Assembly (NCBI GenBank): GCA_016874005.1
Contig: VGVQ01000024.1
Span: forward strand, 1-52,900
Direction: 5' to 3'
DNA length: 52,900 nucleotides
From: Gemmatimonadota bacterium
GTDB taxonomy: Bacteria > Gemmatimonadota > Gemmatimonadetes > Gemmatimonadales > GWC2-71-9
Numbering within the stretch: position 1 is the first letter of the stretch; every line of letters starts with the position of its first letter. This document shows positions 25,743 to 50,816 of the stretch, one piece after another. The notes below the pieces were generated by a model that worked only from the letters and a program-made list of their open reading frames with translations, was not told the DNA's origin and did not search any database. A program made the translations under genes and the position numbers.

Positions 25743-26783
25743 CTATCGACCCGATCGGTCAAGCGTGCCGGCCCGATTCGTCCCGGCTTGCCGGTCAGTC
25801 TCGGATGGCAATTCCACCGCTGGACCGGGGTCGTCGGGCGGAACCACCCAGCCCTCGTCCAAGGCAACCCGCCGGGGCCGGTCCCGGGCCGCTCGAAGGC
25901 GCCAGGCGACGACCACCATGACCGCAACCACGACCCACAGGCCGCCCACCGCAAGCCACGAAACGAAATTGTACCGAAGCCGAACGTGCCGCTGCCACGC
26001 CGCCTCGAGCCGCCCCGGACCAAGCCCGGTAGCCCGGGCCACGGCCGAGTCGAACGGCTGGCCGTCCGCCAGCCGCTCGAGCAGCGGGACGATACTCCGA
26101 TCGGCGGTCCGAGTCGCCAGGAACGCCACCGCGCTGGCCGCCAGGGCGTACGACGCGTCAGCGGCCCCTGCGCTGGCCCGCAGGGTCTCGTTGAGTCGAT
26201 CGAGAGTCGGCACGTCGCCGCGGGCCACGGCAAGATTGAGGGCGAGTCCGTCGAGCCGAGCGAACTCACCGGCAGCAAGCACCGCGTAGCCCTCATCGAA
26301 CCACCGAGGCACCCGACCCCGAATCGCCTGGCGGAGGGCGAGATGGGCCAATTCGTGGCGAAGCACCTGGCGAGGATCGGGAACATCCGCTCGAACGACC
26401 ACGAGTCGGCCCTCCGGCGCGGCCCACCCGGCGGCCCAGCCGGGCACCCTTCCCCGGCCCAACCGGTCGGCCGCTACCCCGCGCCCGACGACCAGCGTCA
26501 GCGGAGCGACCAGCCGTTGGCCGAGACCCAGGTACCCGGCCGGGCGATCCGCCAGCTCCGCGAGTGAGAGCGCCAGGTCGAGGTCGCGCGGCTCCGCCAC
26601 CACGGTGACCTGCCCCACTCGAGCGACCTGTCGCCCGAGCTGAGCGGCGGCCGGGAGTTGAACCGCGATCAGACCGAAGGCGACGATCGCGGCACCACGC
26701 CGCCACGCTCGACGGACTCGAGCAACTCGGCGCAGCGCGCGGCCCAGGGCGCGAACCGGTTGGCGCTCGCCCCTCTTTTCCAC
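25743..26783 (-). CDS. Gluzincin-type metallopeptidase, membrane-anchored
   Basis: A peptidase-MA-like protein with an HELAHLALR zinc motif and a downstream Glu in RWFDEGYAVL, the gluzincin pattern (HExxH...E). An N-terminal hydrophobic stretch (GAAIVAFGLIAVQLPAAAQ) looks like a signal peptide. A C-terminal membrane helix (SWLAVGGLWVVVAVMVVVAW) is followed by a short cytoplasmic tail. The start is unclear: no ATG, GTG or TTG lies just before the signal peptide. The nearest is GTG at 26783, which overlaps the TPR gene by 115 bases. A GTG at 26618 would remove the signal. Substrate unknown. Confidence 0.7.
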   Translation of the reverse strand: MEKRGERQPVRALGRALRRVARVRRAWRRGAAIVAFGLIAVQLPAAAQLGRQVARVGQVTVVAEPRDLDLALSLAELADRPAGYLGLGQRLVAPLTLVVGRGVAADRLGRGRVPGWAAGWAAPEGRLVVVRADVPDPRQVLRHELAHLALRQAIRGRVPRWFDEGYAVLAAGEFARLDGLALNLAVARGDVPTLDRLNETLRASAGAADASYALAASAVAFLATRTADRSIVPLLERLADGQPFDSAVARATGLGPGRLEAAWQRHVRLRYNFVSWLAVGGLWVVVAVMVVVAWRLRAARDRPRRVALDEGWVVPPDDPGPAVELPSETDRQAGTNRAGTLDRSGR

Positions 26784-27544
26784 GTCGCGATGGCCCCCGC
26801 CGAGTCGCCGCTGAACCACTGGGCCCTTCCCAATTCGTAGTGCGCCTCGATCAGGTTCGGTCCAAGGGCGACCGCCTTGGCCAGGAACGATTGGGCGTCG
26901 AGGTACATCCCTCGCTCCAGGTACACCAAGCCCAAATAATAGTGGGCATAGAGGGTGGCCTTCCGGTCGGCGTCCGCCCGGATCACCCGGGAGAGGTGTT
27001 CGATGGCTTCGCCGAAAATCCGTTTCTTCAGACAGACATAGCCGATGTTGACCCTGGCCAACTGGTTCGACGGTTCGGCGGCGAGTACCCGCGAAAATGT
27101 CTCCAACGCCTTGTCGAGCTGGTGGTCGAGAATTTGGGCCCAGCCCATCAGGGACTGGGCCTCGAGGTCGTTCGGGGCCAATTCGAGCGCCCGCTCGAGC
27201 GACTGTCTGGCGCCCTGGTGGTCGCCCAGGGCGATGAGGGACCAGCCTTTCTCGACGAAGGTCGAGGCGCCGAGGTGATCGGCTTGGAAGCTGGGCCGCA
27301 CGCTCGGGCCAGGACCCGGACCGTCGGGTTCTACGACCACCGTCCGTTTGTACCGCTCGACCAAGCCGCGGATCCGCTGGCGCGCTTCGGCCAATTCCGC
27401 CGCGGCGGCTTCGGTCCGCCGGAAGGCGCTCGCGATCCGCCGCTTGAGGGATTCCTGGTCCCCTGGGGAGAGGTTGGCCGCCAGGCGCGCCTCCAGGTCG
27501 GCGATCTCTTCCGCCAATCCGGCGTAGGTCGGGTCCGGGGTCAT
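26669..27544 (-). CDS. TPR-repeat protein with N-terminal coiled coil
   Basis: 291 residues. The N-terminal third is a helical coiled coil (about 8-65, LAEEIADLEARLAANL). The rest is four to five TPR motifs (for example KGWSLIALGDHQGARQSLER and YLGLVYLERGMYLDAQSFLA). There is no signal peptide, so it is probably cytoplasmic. Its ATG overlaps the cheD stop (TGATG), suggesting translational coupling. The 3' end overlaps the metallopeptidase gene. Function unknown; a scaffold role is an inference. Confidence 0.8.
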   Translation of the reverse strand: MTPDPTYAGLAEEIADLEARLAANLSPGDQESLKRRIASAFRRTEAAAAELAEARQRIRGLVERYKRTVVVEPDGPGPGPSVRPSFQADHLGASTFVEKGWSLIALGDHQGARQSLERALELAPNDLEAQSLMGWAQILDHQLDKALETFSRVLAAEPSNQLARVNIGYVCLKKRIFGEAIEHLSRVIRADADRKATLYAHYYLGLVYLERGMYLDAQSFLAKAVALGPNLIEAHYELGRAQWFSGDSAGAIATWKRGASANRFAPWAARCAELLESVERGGVVPRSSPSV

Positions 27545-28032
27545 CAGAGCACCACCTGCTCTCGCTGGTACGCCTTGACGACGAGCCGGCCAGTCGAGAG
27601 ATCGCATTCGGCCGTCCGACCGAAGTCGCCGCCGACCGCTTCGCCGAGCAATCGGATCCCATGGCGGTGGAGCGCCTCTCGGACGGCGACGACGTTGCGG
27701 TCACCCATCTGAATGGTGCCCGGCGGGGACAGCGAGGCGAACATGCTGGCACCCCCGACGAGTCGAGCGCCGATGGCCGGCACGCGGGCACCCCGCGCGA
27801 TCATCCGTTCCACCAGGGCGGGCACCGCGGTCTGAGCGTAGCGCCCGGGTTGATCGACGGTTCGCCCCGCTCCCGCCGAGGGCAGCAGCACGTGGGCGAT
27901 GCCGCCGATCCGGGCTCCCGGGTCGTACATCACGACCGCGACGCAACTCCCCAGCCCGATGGCGACGAGGGTCCCCGGCGCGTCGGCGACGATCAGCTCA
28001 CTCACCCGAGCCACGAGGCGAGGGCCGCTCAC
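27544..28032 (-). CDS. cheD: Chemoreceptor glutamine deamidase CheD
   Basis: 162 residues, the usual CheD size. Catalytic residues are visible: C30 in IGLGSCVAVVMYDP and H47 in GGIAHVLLP, then LVGGASMFA and GDRNVVAVREAL. CheD deamidates glutamines of chemoreceptors and often works with CheC. The GTG at 28032 overlaps the stop of the CheR remnant (GTGA) and has GGAGG 5 bases upstream, provided by the CheR reading frame. It looks intact although its upstream partners are broken. An open frame up to 28323 is not part of the gene. Confidence 0.93.
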   Translation of the reverse strand: MSGPRLVARVSELIVADAPGTLVAIGLGSCVAVVMYDPGARIGGIAHVLLPSAGAGRTVDQPGRYAQTAVPALVERMIARGARVPAIGARLVGGASMFASLSPPGTIQMGDRNVVAVREALHRHGIRLLGEAVGGDFGRTAECDLSTGRLVVKAYQREQVVL

Positions 28033-28304
28033 CGACACCTCCGATAGATTCGCTCGGTGCGGTCGACGGCCTCGATACCCAGGTCGTCGGCCGGGGTGAT
28101 CGCTTCGGCCTTCCCGAGGACCAGCAGGCCGCCCTGGCGGAGGGACCGAACCAAGTTCGGGAGGATGCGCGACTGGCCATCCGGCCCGTAGTAGATCAAG
28201 ACGTTGCGGCAGAGCACCACGTGGTAGCGGTCGTTTCCAGCCGGGGCAAAGAGATCGCCTCGCCGGAAGGTAGTCCGCCGACGGACCGACTCTGGCGGAA
28301 CGAA
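28029..28304 (-). pseudogene. cheR: 3' remnant of chemotaxis methyltransferase gene cheR
   Basis: Only the last ~91 codons of a CheR-type MCP methyltransferase are present: FVPPESVRRRTTFRRGDL, then VVLCRNVLIYYGPDG (the conserved CRNVLIYF block), GGLLVLGKAE and a terminal RTERIYRR. The N-terminal domain and the SAM-binding loop (about 180 residues) are missing. The remnant has no start codon of its own and is joined to the 5' part of cheW in a different frame. Confidence 0.85.
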
Positions 28305-28492
28305 GGCCGCTTCCCCGGGCCATCCAGCAAGACGTCCGCCCGCACCACGGTGATCAGGGTGCCGCGCAGATTGACGACACCCTCAACCGGCGCTGCAACT
28401 CCCGGCATCGGCGCCACATTCAATCCCGTGCAAACTTCGCGCACGGCGTCCGTCCCGAGAGCCAGGCGGCGGTCGCCCACCCGGCAGACCAT
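28196..28492 (-). pseudogene. cheW: 5' remnant of cheW fused out of frame to cheR
   Basis: From ATG 28492 the first ~57 codons encode the start of a CheW scaffold (VGDRRLALGTDAVREVC, then PVEGVVNLRGTLITVVRADV). Homology then stops. The frame runs through cheR sequence in the wrong frame and ends at 28196, giving a hybrid of 98 residues (114 from a TTG at 28540 inside the end of rluD). The second half of CheW (about 80 residues) is missing. The join lies near 28324-28305. Confidence 0.8.
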
Positions 28493-28511: not shown

Positions 28512-29504
28512 CTATCCTGAACGATCACGATAGAACCCAAGATATGTCAGCCAATCAGGCGGATCAACGCGCTCTGCAACAAGTTGCAGCGCTGGGACCA
28601 GCTCCGTGGGCCAGGGGCTCCGAAACTCGAGCGGGCGGCCGTCGATGGGATGCCGGAAAGCCAGGAGAGCGGCGTGAAGGGCTTGGCGGGCCACCAGGCC
28701 GTTGAGGCGTTCCGCGAGGGCCCGCGAGCCCCCCCCGATCCGCCGGGGCCCACCCCCACCGTAGACGGGATCGCCAACCACGGGATGGCCGACATGGGCC
28801 AGGTGAACCCTGATCTGGTGGGTGCGGCCCGAATGGAGGTCCGCCCGCACCAGGTCCGCGACGTCGAACCGAGCGACCACCTCGACATCGGTGCGGGCCG
28901 GCCGGCCGTCGGGCCTGACGACCATTCGCTTGCGGTCGGTGCTGTGGCGGCCGATTGGGGCGTCGATCCGAACCAAGTCCTTCGGGAGGTGTCCCCAGAC
29001 CAGCGCAGCGTAGGCCCGTTTGACCTGGCGGGCCGAAATCGCGGTCCCGAGGCGACGGTGGGCCAGATCGTTCTTGGCCACCACCATGAGCCCCGAGGTA
29101 TCGCGGTCGAGCCGATGGACGATCCCGGGCCTCCCGGCGGGGGACTCGGAGAGCGCGGTGCCGCGGGCCACCAGCGCATTGACCAGGGTATCGTCCCAAT
29201 GGCCGGGCGCGGGGTGGACCACGAGTCCCGCCGGCTTGTCGATCACGGCGAGGTGTTCGTCTTCGTAGACCACGGTAATCGGGACATGATGGGGGGCCAG
29301 CGTCCGAGGCGGGGCCTGATCGGGGAAGGTCACCGATATCAGGTCGCCTCTGCCGAGGGTCCGCGAAGCCCGGGCGACGTCGTCACCGACCGTGACGGCG
29401 CCGTCGGCGACGAGCCGGGCGGCCTGAGTCCGGGACAGCGCGAGCTGATCGGCGAGAAACCGGTCCAAGCGCTCCGTCACGGGGGCGCACACCGAGAACG
29501 TCAC
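28512..29504 (-). CDS. rluD: Ribosomal large subunit pseudouridine synthase, RluD/YlyB family
   Basis: 330 residues with an N-terminal S4 RNA-binding domain (about 11-60, ERLDRFLADQLALSRTQAARL) and a RluA-type catalytic domain with HRLDRDTSG (catalytic D133), YEDEHLAVIDKPAG and SGRTHQIRVHL. It probably modifies the 23S rRNA helix 69 region. GTG start at 29504, 19 bases after lspA. In Bacillus the same position after lspA is held by ylyB of this family. Confidence 0.92.
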   Translation of the reverse strand: MTFSVCAPVTERLDRFLADQLALSRTQAARLVADGAVTVGDDVARASRTLGRGDLISVTFPDQAPPRTLAPHHVPITVVYEDEHLAVIDKPAGLVVHPAPGHWDDTLVNALVARGTALSESPAGRPGIVHRLDRDTSGLMVVAKNDLAHRRLGTAISARQVKRAYAALVWGHLPKDLVRIDAPIGRHSTDRKRMVVRPDGRPARTDVEVVARFDVADLVRADLHSGRTHQIRVHLAHVGHPVVGDPVYGGGGPRRIGGGSRALAERLNGLVARQALHAALLAFRHPIDGRPLEFRSPWPTELVPALQLVAERVDPPDWLTYLGFYRDRSG

Positions 29505-45754: not shown

Positions 45755-47155
45755 TCAGCCGGTAGCCGCCGGCTTCCGGACGTTGAGTTTGTTGCGGAGG
45801 GTGCGCTCGCTGATCCCGAGCAGTTTCGCGGCCCGGGTCCGGTTGCCGCCGGTCGCGGCCAAGGCCCGTTGAATGGTGATGCGCTCGAGCTCGTTGAGAT
45901 CGAGGACTTCGGCCCCCGGACCCGACGCGGCGGCGCCCGGCCCGACCGCAGCCGGGTTGGCACTTGCCGTGACCGCCGAGGAGGCCGTCGGAGCCGGCGC
46001 CTCGCCGAACGCCTCCGGGCGCAAGGCGCCGCCGCGGGAGAGGATCACGGCCCGTTCAACGACATTGGCCAGTTCCCGAATGTTCCCTGGCCAGGGCCGT
46101 TGCTGGAGCATCGCGATCGCTTCGGGAGTCACTCCACCGACCTCGACGCCGAGTTGCTGGGCCGCCTTCCCGAGGAAGTGGTGGACCAGGGCCGGAATGT
46201 CCTCCCGGCGCTCTCCGAGCGGCGGCAGGTGGATCGGAACGACGTTGAGGCGGTAGTAGAGGTCGGACCGGAACTTCCCGGCGTCGGCTTCCGCCTTGAG
46301 ATCCCGGTTGGTCGTGGCGATGAGCCGGACGTCGACCCGGATCGGCTGCTGGCCGCCGACCCGTTCGAACTCCTGCTCCTGAATCACCCGAAGCAGCTTG
46401 GCCTGGAGATCGAGCCGCATCTCGGAGATTTCGTCGAGCAGCAGGGTGCCGCCATGGGCCCGCTCGAAGGCACCCATGGTCCGGGAGCTGGCGCCCGTGA
46501 AGGCACCCTTCTCGTGCCCGAACAGGGCACTTTCGACCAGACCCTCCGGCATCGCGGCGCAGTTGATCGTGATGAAGGGCCGGTCGCGGCGGGGGCTCTG
46601 CTCGTGGATGGCCCTAGCGATCAACTCCTTGCCGGTTCCCGACTGCCCTTCGAGGAGAACGGTCGCTTTCGTCGGGGCGACGGTCGATACCACCTCGAGG
46701 ACTCGCCGGAGCGCCGGGCTGTCACCGAGAATCTGCCGTTTGCCTCGCAGGCTCGACAGCTCCTGGCGGTAGCTCTCGTTTTCCTTCTTGAGGCGGATCA
46801 CCTCGAGGGCTTGGCTCACCGCGATTCTCAAGGTCTCTTGCCGCACCGGCTTGGTGAGGTAATCGATGGCACCGCTGCGAAGGGTCATCACCGCGTGCTC
46901 GACCGACGAGTATCCGGTCATGATGATGACCGGGATCTGGTAGCCCTCCTTCTCGAGCGCGGTCAGCAGGTCCAGCCCGGTGGCGTTGGGCATCCGGTAG
47001 TCGGACACGATGAGGTCGAACTGGTGGCGGGCCACGGCTCGGAGCGCCTCGTCGACGCTGGTCGCGAGCACCGGCGAGTGCCCCAACTTGGTCAGGGCGG
47101 CTTCGAGCACCACCCCAACCGAAGGTTCGTCATCGACGCACAAGATGGTCGCCAT
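45755..47155 (-). CDS. Sigma-54-dependent response regulator (NtrC/FlgR type)
   Basis: 466 residues: receiver domain (1-120) with phosphoacceptor D52 in VSDYRMP, an AAA+ sigma-54 interaction domain with Walker A GQSGTGKE (170-177), the GAFTGA loop (217-222) and Walker B LLLDEIS (D241, E242), R-fingers in DLYYRLNV, and a Fis-type helix-turn-helix (about 425-463, TRAAKLLGISERTLRNKL). The intact GAFTGA shows it can activate sigma-54. Its place opposite flgL, with sigma-54 promoters nearby, makes a FlgR/FlrC-like flagellar role likely. No cognate kinase is in the window. Confidence 0.93.
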   Translation of the reverse strand: MATILCVDDEPSVGVVLEAALTKLGHSPVLATSVDEALRAVARHQFDLIVSDYRMPNATGLDLLTALEKEGYQIPVIIMTGYSSVEHAVMTLRSGAIDYLTKPVRQETLRIAVSQALEVIRLKKENESYRQELSSLRGKRQILGDSPALRRVLEVVSTVAPTKATVLLEGQSGTGKELIARAIHEQSPRRDRPFITINCAAMPEGLVESALFGHEKGAFTGASSRTMGAFERAHGGTLLLDEISEMRLDLQAKLLRVIQEQEFERVGGQQPIRVDVRLIATTNRDLKAEADAGKFRSDLYYRLNVVPIHLPPLGERREDIPALVHHFLGKAAQQLGVEVGGVTPEAIAMLQQRPWPGNIRELANVVERAVILSRGGALRPEAFGEAPAPTASSAVTASANPAAVGPGAAASGPGAEVLDLNELERITIQRALAATGGNRTRAAKLLGISERTLRNKLNVRKPAATG

Positions 47156-47169
47156 CTCGCACCCGATCC

Positions 47170-47186
47170 TGGCTCAAGGTTTGCAC
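47170..47186 (+). promoter_or_regulatory. Sigma-54 promoter of flgL
   Basis: TGGCTC - AAGGT - TTGCAC, close to the consensus TGGCAC-N5-TTGCA, with GG (47171-47172) and GC (47183-47184) separated by exactly 10 bases. It lies about 60 bases before the flgL GTG, in the divergent gap with the activator gene. Confidence 0.65.
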
Positions 47187-47200
47187 GTAAGTGTCGATAA
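47173..47200 (+). promoter_or_regulatory. Sigma-28 promoter of flgL (superimposed on sigma-54 site)
   Basis: CTCAAG (47173-47178), 14 bases, GTCGATAA (47193-47200). This equals TCAA-N15-GTCGATAA against the FliA consensus TAAA-N15-GCCGATAA. It shares its -35 with the sigma-54 spacer. Confidence 0.55.
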
Positions 47201-47245
47201 TCAATATACCTGGACTGCCAAGCCAGGGTCCATCGGGAGGGAGCC

Positions 47246-48151
47246 GTGCGGATCACCAACAGCCAGCTGCGGGACGAGAGCCTGCGCCAGATCCAGGCCA
47301 ACCTCGACCGGCTTTCCGACCTCCAGCGTCAGGTGGCCACGGGGAAGCGATTCACCCGGGTCGAGGAAGACCCACTCGGGGCGACCGTCGTAATGCGGGC
47401 CGAGCGGGGCAAGCGGGCCATCGATCAGTTCGCCAAGAACGGGACCAACGCGCAGGTCCGCCTCGGTGCCGAGGAAGCCGTCGTCAAGCAGGTCACCGAC
47501 CTCCTCCGCCAGGGTCGCGACTTCGCCTTGAGCTTCGCCAAGGGCGATCCGCCGTACACGGCAAGCCAGGTCAGCCAGCGCCAACTGGCGGCGGACCAGC
47601 TCGACCGGCTGATCGAGGAAGCGATAGCCTTCGGAAACACCAAGATCGGTAACGAGTACATCCTGGCTGGTGAGCGGTCGACCACCCCGCCCTTCGAGTC
47701 GACCCCCGGCCCCACCTTGGGCGCCTATCTCGGCGGGACTGCGGCCCGGCGGGTGGCGATCGCCGATGGCGTGACCGTGGCGCCAAACCATACCGGAGAT
47801 CAGTACCTCGGCCCCGCCATCGCGCAGCTCATCGCGCTGCGGGACGCGGTCGACCCCGCCAACGGCCAAACCGAGTCGCAGGTTCAAGTCCAGGTGTCGG
47901 CAGTGTTCGACGCCGGCCAGGACCTGCTGCTGTCACTTGCCCAGACCGGAATGGTCGGCAATCAGCTGGCGGCGACTCTCAAGGCCAACACGGTCGTCAA
48001 AAATGACCTCGAAACCCAGCGGGCAACCGCTCAGGACATCCCGCTGGAAGAATCGGTCACCAAGTTGTTGGCTCTCCAGACCACGATCGAAGCTTCGTAC
48101 AACGCGACCAGCCGGCTGCTCAATCTGACGATCACCGACTATCTCCGGTAG
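47246..48151 (+). CDS. flgL: Flagellar hook-associated protein 3 FlgL
   Basis: Junction protein between hook and filament. 301 residues. The N-terminal flagellin-like D0/D1 helix reads MRITNSQLRDESLRQIQANL with QVATGKRFTRVEEDPLGA. The C-terminal helix ends with LQTTIEASYNATSRLLNLTITDYL, both typical of FlgL. The GTG at 47246 follows GGGAGGG. It is expressed from the overlapping sigma-54/sigma-28 elements. It faces flaF convergently with a 57-base gap (48152-48208) that has no clear terminator. Confidence 0.93.
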   Translation: MRITNSQLRDESLRQIQANLDRLSDLQRQVATGKRFTRVEEDPLGATVVMRAERGKRAIDQFAKNGTNAQVRLGAEEAVVKQVTDLLRQGRDFALSFAKGDPPYTASQVSQRQLAADQLDRLIEEAIAFGNTKIGNEYILAGERSTTPPFESTPGPTLGAYLGGTAARRVAIADGVTVAPNHTGDQYLGPAIAQLIALRDAVDPANGQTESQVQVQVSAVFDAGQDLLLSLAQTGMVGNQLAATLKANTVVKNDLETQRATAQDIPLEESVTKLLALQTTIEASYNATSRLLNLTITDYLR

Positions 48152-48208
48152 CGACGCCGCCGCGCCCCAGACCTCGAGCGGGAATGGCGACCGCGCCCGC
48201 GAGCCGCC

Positions 48209-48610
48209 TCAGGCACCGGCGCCAACCGGCGCCGCCTTGGGCGAGGTCGAGAGGCCGGCCGCGATGTTCCGGTTGATGTTGATGAGGATGGTGAGCTTGT
48301 CCGGGGCGGGCGCCAAGAGCACGTCGAAGGTCCGTCGATCGACGAACTCGATCAGCTGGCAGAGGCCGAGCTTGAGTTCGGCCGGCAACGGGCAGTCGGG
48401 AGCCGAGATCTCCGCTTGGAAGAAAGTCCACAGCTTCTGATTGAGTTTGAGGGCCTCGTCGAGCCTGGCGGGCCCGCCGGGTGTTGCCCACTGGGCCTGC
48501 GCCTGTTGCAGGGCCCTGGCGACCCGGAAGAGGGCAGATGCCTCGAGCTGCCGCCCACTGACGGTGATCTTCTCGACGGTGGCGTAGGCGTCAGCGACGT
48601 GCGACGGCAT
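48209..48610 (-). CDS. flaF: Flagellar biosynthesis regulator FlaF
   Basis: 133 residues. It matches the FlaF pattern: SGRQLEASALFRVARALQQA, then LDEALKLNQKLWTFFQAEI, then LPAELKLGLCQLIEFVDRRTF. FlaF is known from alphaproteobacteria such as Caulobacter and Brucella, where it promotes flagellin translation or secretion and acts against FlbT. It overlaps flbT by 20 bases. The C-terminal tail is Ala/Pro-rich. Confidence 0.85.
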   Translation of the reverse strand: MPSHVADAYATVEKITVSGRQLEASALFRVARALQQAQAQWATPGGPARLDEALKLNQKLWTFFQAEISAPDCPLPAELKLGLCQLIEFVDRRTFDVLLAPAPDKLTILININRNIAAGLSTSPKAAPVGAGA

Positions 48611-48989
48611 GGGAGATCAGTTCCTGTTCGTAAAGGATGAGTTGGCGGCCCAACCGGAGGGCCTGGTAGTACTGGCCCGCGGCGATCTTGTCGTCGATCT
48701 CCTCGATGAGCTGGCGCATACTGGGCGATGCCTCGAGTACCTCGGCGACCAGCTGCCGGAGGAGCGTTCGATGACTGCTTCGGTGCTCCGGATCGACATA
48801 CATCAGCTGGATGGCGAACTGAATTCGTTTACACGGACTGGACGCTTCGTCGAGACTGAGCACGTCCTTGCCCCGTAGTATCGGCACGTCGTTCTCGATC
48901 ACGAGATCGCAGCGGTGGCCGCCGTTGCGGACGACCGCACCGCCCACGATCAATCGTTCCCCGGCCCTGAGCGAGATCCTGAGCGGCAT
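48591..48989 (-). CDS. flbT: Flagellin translation repressor FlbT
   Basis: 132 residues starting MPLRISLRAGERLIVGGAVV, with RCDLVIENDVPILRGKDVL, FAIQLMYVDPEHRSSH and LVAEVLEASPS. This is the FlbT family pattern. In Caulobacter FlbT destabilises flagellin mRNA, so it links filament synthesis to assembly. It starts 4 bases after the preceding small gene and overlaps flaF by 20 bases. No flagellin gene is in the window. Confidence 0.87.
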   Translation of the reverse strand: MPLRISLRAGERLIVGGAVVRNGGHRCDLVIENDVPILRGKDVLSLDEASSPCKRIQFAIQLMYVDPEHRSSHRTLLRQLVAEVLEASPSMRQLIEEIDDKIAAGQYYQALRLGRQLILYEQELISHAVARR

Positions 48990-48992
48990 CGA

Positions 48993-49232
48993 TCAGGCGA
49001 GGTCCCGAAGCAGATCGTGCGACCCCCGGGCCAGATCGAAGTGGCCCTCCGATCGAAGCGTTGCCCCGACCTCGATGCTCGCGATCTCCGCGCCGGCGAC
49101 GTCGCTGGCGGTCGGACGGGTCGCCCCCAGGTCGGCCCGTTGGGCGGTGACATCGGACTTCACCGCGTCGAGGGTGTGCAACACCGCTTCGACTTCTTCC
49201 GTCGACGAGTGCTCCGTCAACTCCGGAAGCAC
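48993..49232 (-). CDS. Small helical protein upstream of flbT (79 aa)
   Basis: 79 residues from GTG 49232 (SD GAGGG 10 bases upstream) or 75 from TTG 49220, which overlaps the TPR stop. It reads LPELTEHSSTEEVEAVLHTLD, then AVKSDVTAQRADLGATRP. The middle faintly recalls the flagellin C-terminal helix (..RADLGA..), too weakly to assign. It sits tightly between the TPR gene and flbT (3 bases). It may alternatively be a frameshifted tail of the TPR gene. Confidence 0.55.
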   Translation of the reverse strand: MLPELTEHSSTEEVEAVLHTLDAVKSDVTAQRADLGATRPTASDVAGAEIASIEVGATLRSEGHFDLARGSHDLLRDLA

Positions 49233-49702
49233 GAAGCGACCGCCCTCGCGGCTGGCGAGTCGGCGCAAGCCCGAAGGGCTCCGAGCGCATCGCCCTGGAG
49301 CCGAAGGGCGTTCCCGAGGTGCAGGCACGCTTTGGCGGAGGCGGGCCGCAGCGCCACGGCCCGCTCGAACTCGGCCCGGGCACGGGGCACGTTGCCGTGG
49401 GCCCGGTAGGCGAGCCCCAGGTTGATCGGGAAGTCCGGTGCCCGCGGGTCGAGCTCGACCGCGCGCTCCAGGAGAGCGATCGCCAGCGGGTGGTCGCCGC
49501 ATTGGTGAGCCAGAACCCCAACCAGATTGAGCGCGTCCGGCTGGTTCGGCTCCCGCGCGAGAACCTGACGATACCGGACCATTGCGCCGCGAAGGTCCCC
49601 GGCCTGGTGGGCAACGAGGCCGAGACGAAGCAGATCCCGAACCCCCAGGACCGGCGTCCGTTCCATCGCCACCAGCGGCTCTTCGGAAGACAGTTCGATC
49701 AT
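49217..49702 (-). CDS. TPR-repeat protein, first gene of the flbT-flaF operon
   Basis: 161 residues from ATG 49702. Three TPR units occupy most of the protein (LRLGLVAHQAGDLRGAMVRY; LNLVGVLAHQCGDHPLAIAL; INLGLAYRAHGNVPRARAEF). It ends soon after the last repeat with an atypical tail (AVASCFRS). No signal peptide. An alternative ATG is at 49666. It is preceded by a sigma-54 promoter and is probably a flagellar accessory or a glycosylation-type scaffold; unproven. Confidence 0.75.
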   Translation of the reverse strand: MIELSSEEPLVAMERTPVLGVRDLLRLGLVAHQAGDLRGAMVRYRQVLAREPNQPDALNLVGVLAHQCGDHPLAIALLERAVELDPRAPDFPINLGLAYRAHGNVPRARAEFERAVALRPASAKACLHLGNALRLQGDALGALRACADSPAARAVASCFRS

Positions 49703-49791
49703 GACCTCAATTGGCGCGCGAGTTGGTCCGGCAATCCGGCTCGCGCCTCGGGTAGAAATTTCCGGTTGCGTACGGCGAGGAAGGCGAGGGG

Positions 49792-49806
49792 GCAAGAGGT
49801 ACGCCA
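49792..49806 (-). promoter_or_regulatory. Sigma-54 promoter of the TPR-flbT-flaF operon
   Basis: Minus strand TGGCGT - ACCTC - TTGCC, with GG (49805-49804) and GC (49793-49792) 10 bases apart. It lies 90 bases before the ATG at 49702. Confidence 0.5.
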
Positions 49807-49823
49807 GTGCCCGACGCCGCCCG

Positions 49824-49851
49824 CTCAAGTGGCTGGACGAGACGCCGATAC
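49824..49851 (+). promoter_or_regulatory. Sigma-28-type promoter without an obvious gene
   Basis: CTCAAG (49824-49829), 14 bases, GCCGATAC (49844-49851). Same spacing and sequence as the flgL and flgM elements. It points towards flgM, 231 bases before its ATG. The next 100 bases hold no convincing gene (a 45-codon frame from ATG 49891 is weak). Confidence 0.45.
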
Positions 49852-49961
49852 TACGTTGTCAGGCCACGAGATCCGGCGCGGCTGGCGACCATGGCAGAGG
49901 GCCGTTGTCAGCCCGAATGGGCCCCTGTGACTCGGCAAGCCTTGACCGGTCATTCTTTCCC

Positions 49962-49977
49962 GGGCACGGTCTCTGCA
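49962..49977 (+). promoter_or_regulatory. Sigma-54 promoter upstream of flgM-like gene
   Basis: GGGCAC - GGTCTC - TGCAC. GG (49963-49964) and GC (49975-49976) are 10 bases apart, and the -12 box is TGCA. About 105 bases before the ATG. Confidence 0.45.
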
Positions 49978-50000
49978 CGTTGGGGGTTCGGGAAGTGGCA

Positions 50001-50028
50001 CTCAAGTTCTGAGACAGCCGGCCGATAG
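50001..50028 (+). promoter_or_regulatory. Sigma-28 promoter of flgM-like gene
   Basis: CTCAAG (50001-50006), 14 bases, GCCGATAG (50021-50028), seven of eight bases as in the FliA -10 box. A transcript would begin near 50035, about 48 bases before the ATG. Autoregulation of flgM from a sigma-28 promoter is well known in other bacteria. Confidence 0.6.
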
Positions 50029-50082
50029 TCGACGTTGGACGCATCGCCAGCGGCGCTGGCGAGGAGAAGGAGTGAAGCAGCC

Positions 50083-50418
50083 ATGAACATCAATCCGAGT
50101 TCACCGCAGGGACCCCGGGCCGGCGATTCCGCGTCCATCGAAGCCCAGCGGGCGCAGGACAACCGACTCGACCCGACACCGTCGGCCACCGACCGAGCCG
50201 CCCCGAAGGTTCGAACCGACTCGGCGGAGGTCTCGGCCGAGGCGAAGGCGCTCGCCGAAGGGACCGAGACCCCACCGCGCTCGACCCTCTCCGCGGAGCG
50301 GCTCCAGGAGATCTCCGAACGCCTCGCGAGCAACTACTACGATCGCCCCGAGGTCATCGAGACGGTGGCCAAGCGCCTCGCGGCCGACCCGAACCTGCGG
50401 GTCGAGGACCCTCGGTGA
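50083..50418 (+). CDS. flgM: FlgM-like anti-sigma-28 factor
   Basis: 111 residues, polar and disordered in the first half. The second half (LSAERLQEISERLASNYYDR, then PEVIETVAKRLAADP) matches the FlgM sigma-28-binding helices with the usual S/G-x-Y-D pattern. It should hold FliA inactive until the hook is complete. ATG at 50083 with AAGGAG 11 bases upstream. Its last bases overlap the cheY start (GTGA). Confidence 0.8.
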   Translation: MNINPSSPQGPRAGDSASIEAQRAQDNRLDPTPSATDRAAPKVRTDSAEVSAEAKALAEGTETPPRSTLSAERLQEISERLASNYYDRPEVIETVAKRLAADPNLRVEDPR

Positions 50419-50816
50419 GGTGTTTGGTCGTCGACGACTCCTCGACGATGCGCCGAATCGTCATCAACGCCCTGAAAACGATCGGCGCAACCGAGGTCGT
50501 TGAAGCCGCGAACGGTCGCGAAGGCCTGGAACGCTGCGATAGCCCGTTCGACCTGATCATCACCGACTGGAACATGCCGGTCCTAGGCGGGCTCGAGTTT
50601 GTCCGGGCGCTCCGGGCCCATCCGGCGACCGAGAAAACGCCGGTCCTGATGGTGACCACTCGCAGTCTCGAGGAGGACATCATTCAGGCCGGGAAGGCCG
50701 GCGTCAACGGTTACATCCTCAAGCCGTTCACCCCCCAAGTCCTCAAGGACAAGATCGCCCAGATCACCGTGTCCACTGAATCCACGGTCGGAGGCGACGG
50801 TGCCGCTGGCCACTGA
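50415..50816 (+). CDS. cheY: CheY-type chemotaxis response regulator
   Basis: A stand-alone receiver of 133 residues. The acidic pair is VVDDSS, the phosphoacceptor is D51 in IITDWNMP, T81/T82 lie in LMVTTRS and K103 in GYILKPF. The TDWNMP and KPF patterns match motor-binding CheY. GTG start overlaps the end of flgM by 4 bases. The Gly-rich tail (VGGDGAAGH) is unremarkable. Confidence 0.93.
   Translation: MRCLVVDDSSTMRRIVINALKTIGATEVVEAANGREGLERCDSPFDLIITDWNMPVLGGLEFVRALRAHPATEKTPVLMVTTRSLEEDIIQAGKAGVNGYILKPFTPQVLKDKIAQITVSTESTVGGDGAAGH

Follow-up and report, generated by a model that had tools for sequence, protein, structure and literature searches.

A deletion scar beside cheD leads to a Gemmatimonadota operon that most likely joins chemosensory genes to an MglA polarity switch

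Introduction

In the stretch of DNA analysed here (the window: 52,900 nucleotides, positions 1 to 52,900 of contig VGVQ01000024.1, assembly GCA_016874005.1), an intact cheD gene stands behind the beginning of a cheW and the end of a cheR that are joined to each other. This raises the questions of what was lost between the two fragments, whether the loss is real and why cheD is still there. The genome that holds the window, G000, is a Gemmatimonadota draft of 3.88 Mb in 49 contigs (97.09% complete, 1.26% contamination). We compared the locus with its counterparts in other genomes, with G002, of the same genus, as the reference.

Results

The minus strand of the window carries, in this order, rluD, cheW', 'cheR, cheD and tprD (Table 1). 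The cheW' fragment holds 56 codons counted from the ATG at 28492 and 72 counted from the TTG at 28540, from which the cheW frame stays open up to a stop at 28196. The Pfam CheW match in this frame (28540-28199; E 5.5e-11) covers only positions 3-65 of 138, so that the whole CheW fold is not present. By tblastn the fragment is 58% identical to G002 CheW over 52 residues, and homology stops at 28325, residue 72 of 129. Homology to CheR begins at 28295 (tblastn), where 'cheR aligns at 50% identity with residues 175-262 (of 262) of G002 CheR. Its Pfam CheR match (PF01739; frame 28331-28032; E 1.4e-12) spans positions 115-181 of 195; the N-terminal domain and the first half of the SAM-binding domain are missing, and the piece does not amount to a functional CheR. 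The two fragments lie in different reading frames. The out-of-frame joint that a first-pass annotation of this DNA had placed near 28324-28305 agrees with these results, while its codon counts of about 57 and 91 become 56 and 88. The fragments are collinear with one operon in relatives (G002 and others) and the DNA lost between them occurs nowhere else in the G000 assembly, both of which mark a deletion scar. At the level of the assembled sequence, the scar is confirmed as real.

Table 1. Features around the cheW-cheR joint (positions in the window)
Feature	Position	Strand	Description
rluD-type pseudouridine synthase gene	28512..29504	-	Pfam PseudoU_synth_2 and S4; synteny
cheW'	28325..28492	-	First 56 codons from ATG 28492, truncated; Pfam CheW
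Junction	28296..28324	-	29 bases assignable with confidence to neither cheW nor cheR (ends of tblastn homology; alignments of relatives' cheW and cheR)
'cheR	28029..28295	-	Last 88 codons and stop; Pfam CheR
cheD	27544..28032	-	Intact, 162 aa, GTG start; Pfam CheD
tprD (label coined here)	26669..27544	-	TPR protein; Pfam TPR; 65% identical to G002 tprD

The cheD gene is whole, as the first-pass annotation had it: its GTG start (28032-28030) overlaps the cheR TGA (28031-28029), and the Pfam PF03975 (CheD) match at 28032-27547 takes in positions 1-107 of 108 (E 7.8e-26), a full-length domain. The protein belongs, like the T. maritima enzyme, to the CheD family of receptor deamidases, which act on MCP glutamines; it matches chain C of PDB entry 2f9z (T. 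maritima CheD) with E 1.3e-34. It is 69-75% identical to four same-genus copies. We take the Cys, His and Thr positions of T. maritima CheD to be catalytic. Cys30 and His47 of the G000 protein align with the Cys and His of 2f9z chain C, and the Thr of the CheD motif is Ala24 in G000 and in all four same-genus copies. A second, weak CheD-like match with an internal stop was observed at G000:C5:19126-19323 (L109). The tprD start overlaps the cheD stop, and tprD comes directly after cheD in same-genus genomes, where rluD forms the upstream flank of the operon. Outside the genus cheD and tprD are usually separated by a cheY-like gene, sometimes along with a cheW (L115, L117-L124 and others).

In G002 (contig C13, stretch L099; genes called with a frame-aware score), the order is rluD, cheW, cheY, cheA, cheC, a TPR gene (886 aa), a DUF4388/PATAN gene, a further TPR gene, genes for two small roadblock proteins, an MglA GTPase, an ATPase (646 aa, with two AAA/DnaA-like parts) and a second PATAN protein (PATAN2), cheR, cheD and tprD. 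Pfam searches with ten G002 operon proteins returned Response_reg, CheA domains, CheC, TPR, DUF4388, Robl_LC7 and Bac_DnaA, as expected. Both roadblock proteins are modest Robl_LC7 matches (E 1.2e-8 and 3.1e-4), the second with 20.9 bits, under the curated cut-off of 23. The operon MglA has a weak Arf/Ras match in Pfam; against solved structures it matches M. xanthus-type MglA with E 1.1e-72 and the gliding protein MglA of 3t12 with E 1.1e-64.

The points joined in G000 are 12,898 bases apart in G002, and the gap between rluD and tprD measures 971 bases in G000, 1,103 in G004 (same genus) and 13,833 in G002. The first-pass annotation had envisaged an old cheW-cheR-cheD operon that lost about 750 bases or more. 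A cheW-cheR deletion sparing cheD stands, but eleven genes intervene between cheW and cheR in relatives and the loss comes to about 12.9 kb by comparison with G002; the compact ancestor with its smaller loss is ruled out by G002, by G005 and by the named Gemmatimonadota loci. G005 carries the C-terminal part of CheA and then cheC-TPR-PATAN-TPR-roadblock x2-MglA-ATPase-PATAN-cheR-cheD-tprD on one contig, and rluD-cheW-cheY-CheA (N-terminal part) on another. Such genes are also found, in pieces over contigs, in G001, G003, G006 and G007. In G033, from another genus, a single contig holds rluD and almost all of the operon; G002 CheD has no match in that stretch.

A scan of named genomes yielded 76 cheD loci, 39 with Gemmatimonad titles and 37 others. 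PATAN2 lies upstream of cheD in all 32 Gemmatimonad-titled loci with more than 1,300 bases upstream, and mglA in 21 of the 22 with more than 5,200 bases upstream; among the other loci, PATAN2 was present in 3 of 34 with more than 1,300 bases upstream (two titled only as bacteria, one as WOR-3). This comparison of cheD neighbours, an idea of the first-pass annotation, shows that cheD is the tail of the operon in the phylum and that the window, whose cheD has neither gene upstream, is the exception. The WOR-3 record (L157), a MAG assigned by its title to another phylum, shows the Gemmatimonadota-like order ATPase-PATAN-cheR-cheD, which might reflect transfer or mislabelling.

The fragments, the intact cheD, the flanks and the full operon of relatives, all read from sequence, make it very probable that one deletion, about 12.9 kb long, produced the scar. 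The ancestor would have had the G002 layout, and a single event would have taken out the 3' half of cheW, two thirds of cheR from its 5' end and everything between them (cheY-cheA-cheC-TPR-PATAN-TPR-roadblock-roadblock-MglA-ATPase-PATAN). We infer that the deletion exists in the living population, beyond the assembly. The opposing view is that of an assembly or binning artefact, in which the operon is intact in the population or its major strain and a jump by the assembler connected cheW with cheR. The draft is in 49 contigs, it is the one genome of its species in the comparison, and two mixed strains could have left a 13-kb piece out of the bin. However, the missing 12.9 kb is on no other contig of the assembly, the CheW, CheR and CheA searches agree, and G004, a genome of about 20 contigs, has a comparable loss. 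In G002, which stands here for the lost G000 DNA, the surroundings of the two equivalent points share no word of at least 12 bases, and this argues against a simple repeat collapse. An artefact appears improbable. A direct-repeat mechanism at the junction was rejected on the same G002 sequence for repeats of at least 12 bases.

Had chemotaxis moved elsewhere in the genome, as the first-pass annotation suggested, complete cheW and cheR genes should be found there. The whole G000 genome has no PF01584 (CheW) or PF01739 (CheR) match beyond the two fragments and no PF02895 (CheA) match, and CheC was undetected. When the 12.9 kb of G002 were searched against G000 by blastn, the only match was a second mglA copy (C11). 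This second MglA gene lies outside the operon (G000:C11:14188-14624; L217) and is present in all eight genomes compared (G000-G007). Relocation within this 97%-complete genome is ruled out as far as the CheW, CheR, CheA and 12.9-kb searches reach. The CheA profile has false negatives, since G023 is without a PF02895 match yet has a CheA-like gene in its operon (tblastn; L203 13085-14494), and some chance of a divergent CheA elsewhere in G000 remains. No CheW-domain match was found in the G023 genome. G000 cells would no longer have a CheA-based chemosensory pathway. Two MCP-type proteins with MCPsignal domains (707 and 419 aa) are retained. The far end of the contig carries flagellar genes (window 45758-50816) for a sigma-54 activator, a flagellin/FlgL-like protein, FlaF and FlbT, and a CheY-type regulator (50415-50816) in this genome without detectable CheA.

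The 432 bases of the two fragments contain no stops. Under a neutral model, 0.3 substitutions per site would produce 2.1-3.2 stops in this length (P(none) 0.04-0.12), and at 0.1 substitutions per site P(no stop) is 0.34-0.49. This suggests that the deletion is probably young. Private amino-acid changes on the G000 branch number 16/113 in CheD, 18/216 in rluD and 15/94 in tprD; the small numbers for 'cheR (4/34) and cheW' (4/26) are similar to those of cheD and tprD. The simplest reading is that the deletion is young relative to a long branch and that cheD has not yet had time to decay. The stop-free frames might also mean that a new functional small protein is made, of up to 114 aa from the cheW' frame or of 63 aa from the 'cheR piece (start GTG 28220). 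Yet neither fold is complete in these pieces, a young scar in G+C-rich DNA should have open frames by chance (the 0.1-substitution case above), and no such fusion occurs among the relatives read, making a new protein extremely improbable.

CheD might also have survived because selection keeps it for work outside CheA signalling, for instance the modification of the two MCPs that remain. CheD is whole, with Cys30 and His47 in the positions of the T. maritima protein, and G000 retains its MCPs where G004 has neither CheD nor a PF00015 match. Against this, the private changes of CheD are not few, and because the broken fragments are equally stop-free and change no faster, the intactness of CheD is weak evidence for another role; its conservation as proof of function was rejected, since the fragments look equally conserved. 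Among 73 CheD-positive genomes, four have no PF02895 match: G000, G020 (CheD match of 23 bits with two stops), G036 (78% complete) and G050 (69% complete). No relative that is at least 90% complete has a strong CheD match without a CheA match. The role described for CheD in B. subtilis goes via CheC and CheA (PMC3513319), both undetected in G000. As judged from the sequence, a separate role is unlikely and CheD is probably a leftover, which could act on the two remaining MCPs but with the feedback on CheA gone.

G004 has lost most of its operon in a different way. Its cheW frame is whole, and codons 1-43 of cheY are fused to codons 104-307 of PATAN2 ahead of tprD, without cheR and cheD; G000 retains cheD and the cheR end and is without cheY and PATAN2. 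Each genome retains what the other lost and neither arrangement can be derived from the other, which indicates that the deletions were independent. A tree of the flanking proteins is weakly resolved within the genus (support 34-47%) and adds nothing on this point. We also read the rluD neighbourhoods of 13 more distant genomes, chosen for missing CheA, CheW or CheD matches. In nine of the 13 mglA is still in place; it is missing in G038, G077, G078 and G087. Most of the core is present with no tblastn CheA match in G011, G021, G027, G029, G052 and G060, a CheA-like gene is retained in G023 and G090, and G084 has mglA and PATAN2 only. In G029 (L206), a cheW with one TAG and fragments of cheR and cheC lie beside an intact MglA core, and the chemosensory genes are apparently eroding in place. 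A fourteenth stretch, from G020, gave no matches, and neither G020 nor G014 has an rluD match at E 1e-40. A common pattern is loss of the chemosensory half with the core retained; in G000 and G004 the core itself is gone. As a reason for operon loss, the loss of type IV pili was considered and rejected: PilT-family matches occur in 101 of 101 genomes including G000 (in 99 over the curated cut-off), and operon loss is not explained by losing that family.

Discussion

Gene content and the Myxococcus precedent make it most likely that the lost operon linked an MglA/roadblock polarity switch with a CheA/CheY pathway. As described in PMC3441718 and PMC4316618, the Frz chemosensory system of M. xanthus acts on MglA/MglB via RomR, and PMC7519303 describes stimulation of pilus formation by MglA and the TPR protein SgmX. 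In M. xanthus, according to PMC4316618, mglA lies away from its partners' genes. Like Frz-MglA/MglB with SgmX, the G002 operon has parts of CheA, CheW and CheR type, an MglA GTPase, roadblock proteins and a large TPR protein; all these shared parts are gone from the G000 locus. Unlike in M. xanthus, the G002 parts are all in one operon, with CheC and CheD, and the Robl_LC7 matches are only modest. CheC and CheD are not known from Frz. Group 1 MglA is recorded in Gemmatimonadetes (PMC4316618). The G002 mglA lies near PATAN-domain genes, as in the Group 1/5 neighbourhoods of that paper; there, however, PATAN neighbours are occasional, and its section 18 names no che genes alongside. In B. subtilis, CheC and CheD regulate receptor-kinase activity (PMC3513319). 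All three components of the B. subtilis CheC/CheD/CheY adaptation system would have been encoded in the ancestral operon; unlike in that system, only CheD survives in G000.

A literature search found no paper joining Gemmatimonadota chemotaxis with mglA, or Gemmatimonas chemotaxis with cheD. We give roughly even odds to a broader proposal: that Gemmatimonadota have a system, apparently undescribed so far, whose single operon connects a CheW/CheY/CheA/CheC/CheR/CheD pathway with a polarity core of MglA, roadblock, PATAN, TPR and ATPase proteins. In it the chemosensory half would serve as optional input, as several genomes have the core without detectable CheA, and G000 and G004 would be independent natural losses of the core that kept their PilT-family ATPases. 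Such a system would control the polarity of surface motility, and, with PilT-family genes in every genome searched, the machinery may persist after its controller is lost.

As a case of gene loss the scar is ordinary, with an independent recurrence in the same genus, and the operon behind it is of greater interest. What the scar leads to is a conserved Gemmatimonadota operon in which chemosensory genes are most likely coupled to an MglA polarity switch and whose function can be probed through the natural knock-outs G000 and G004.
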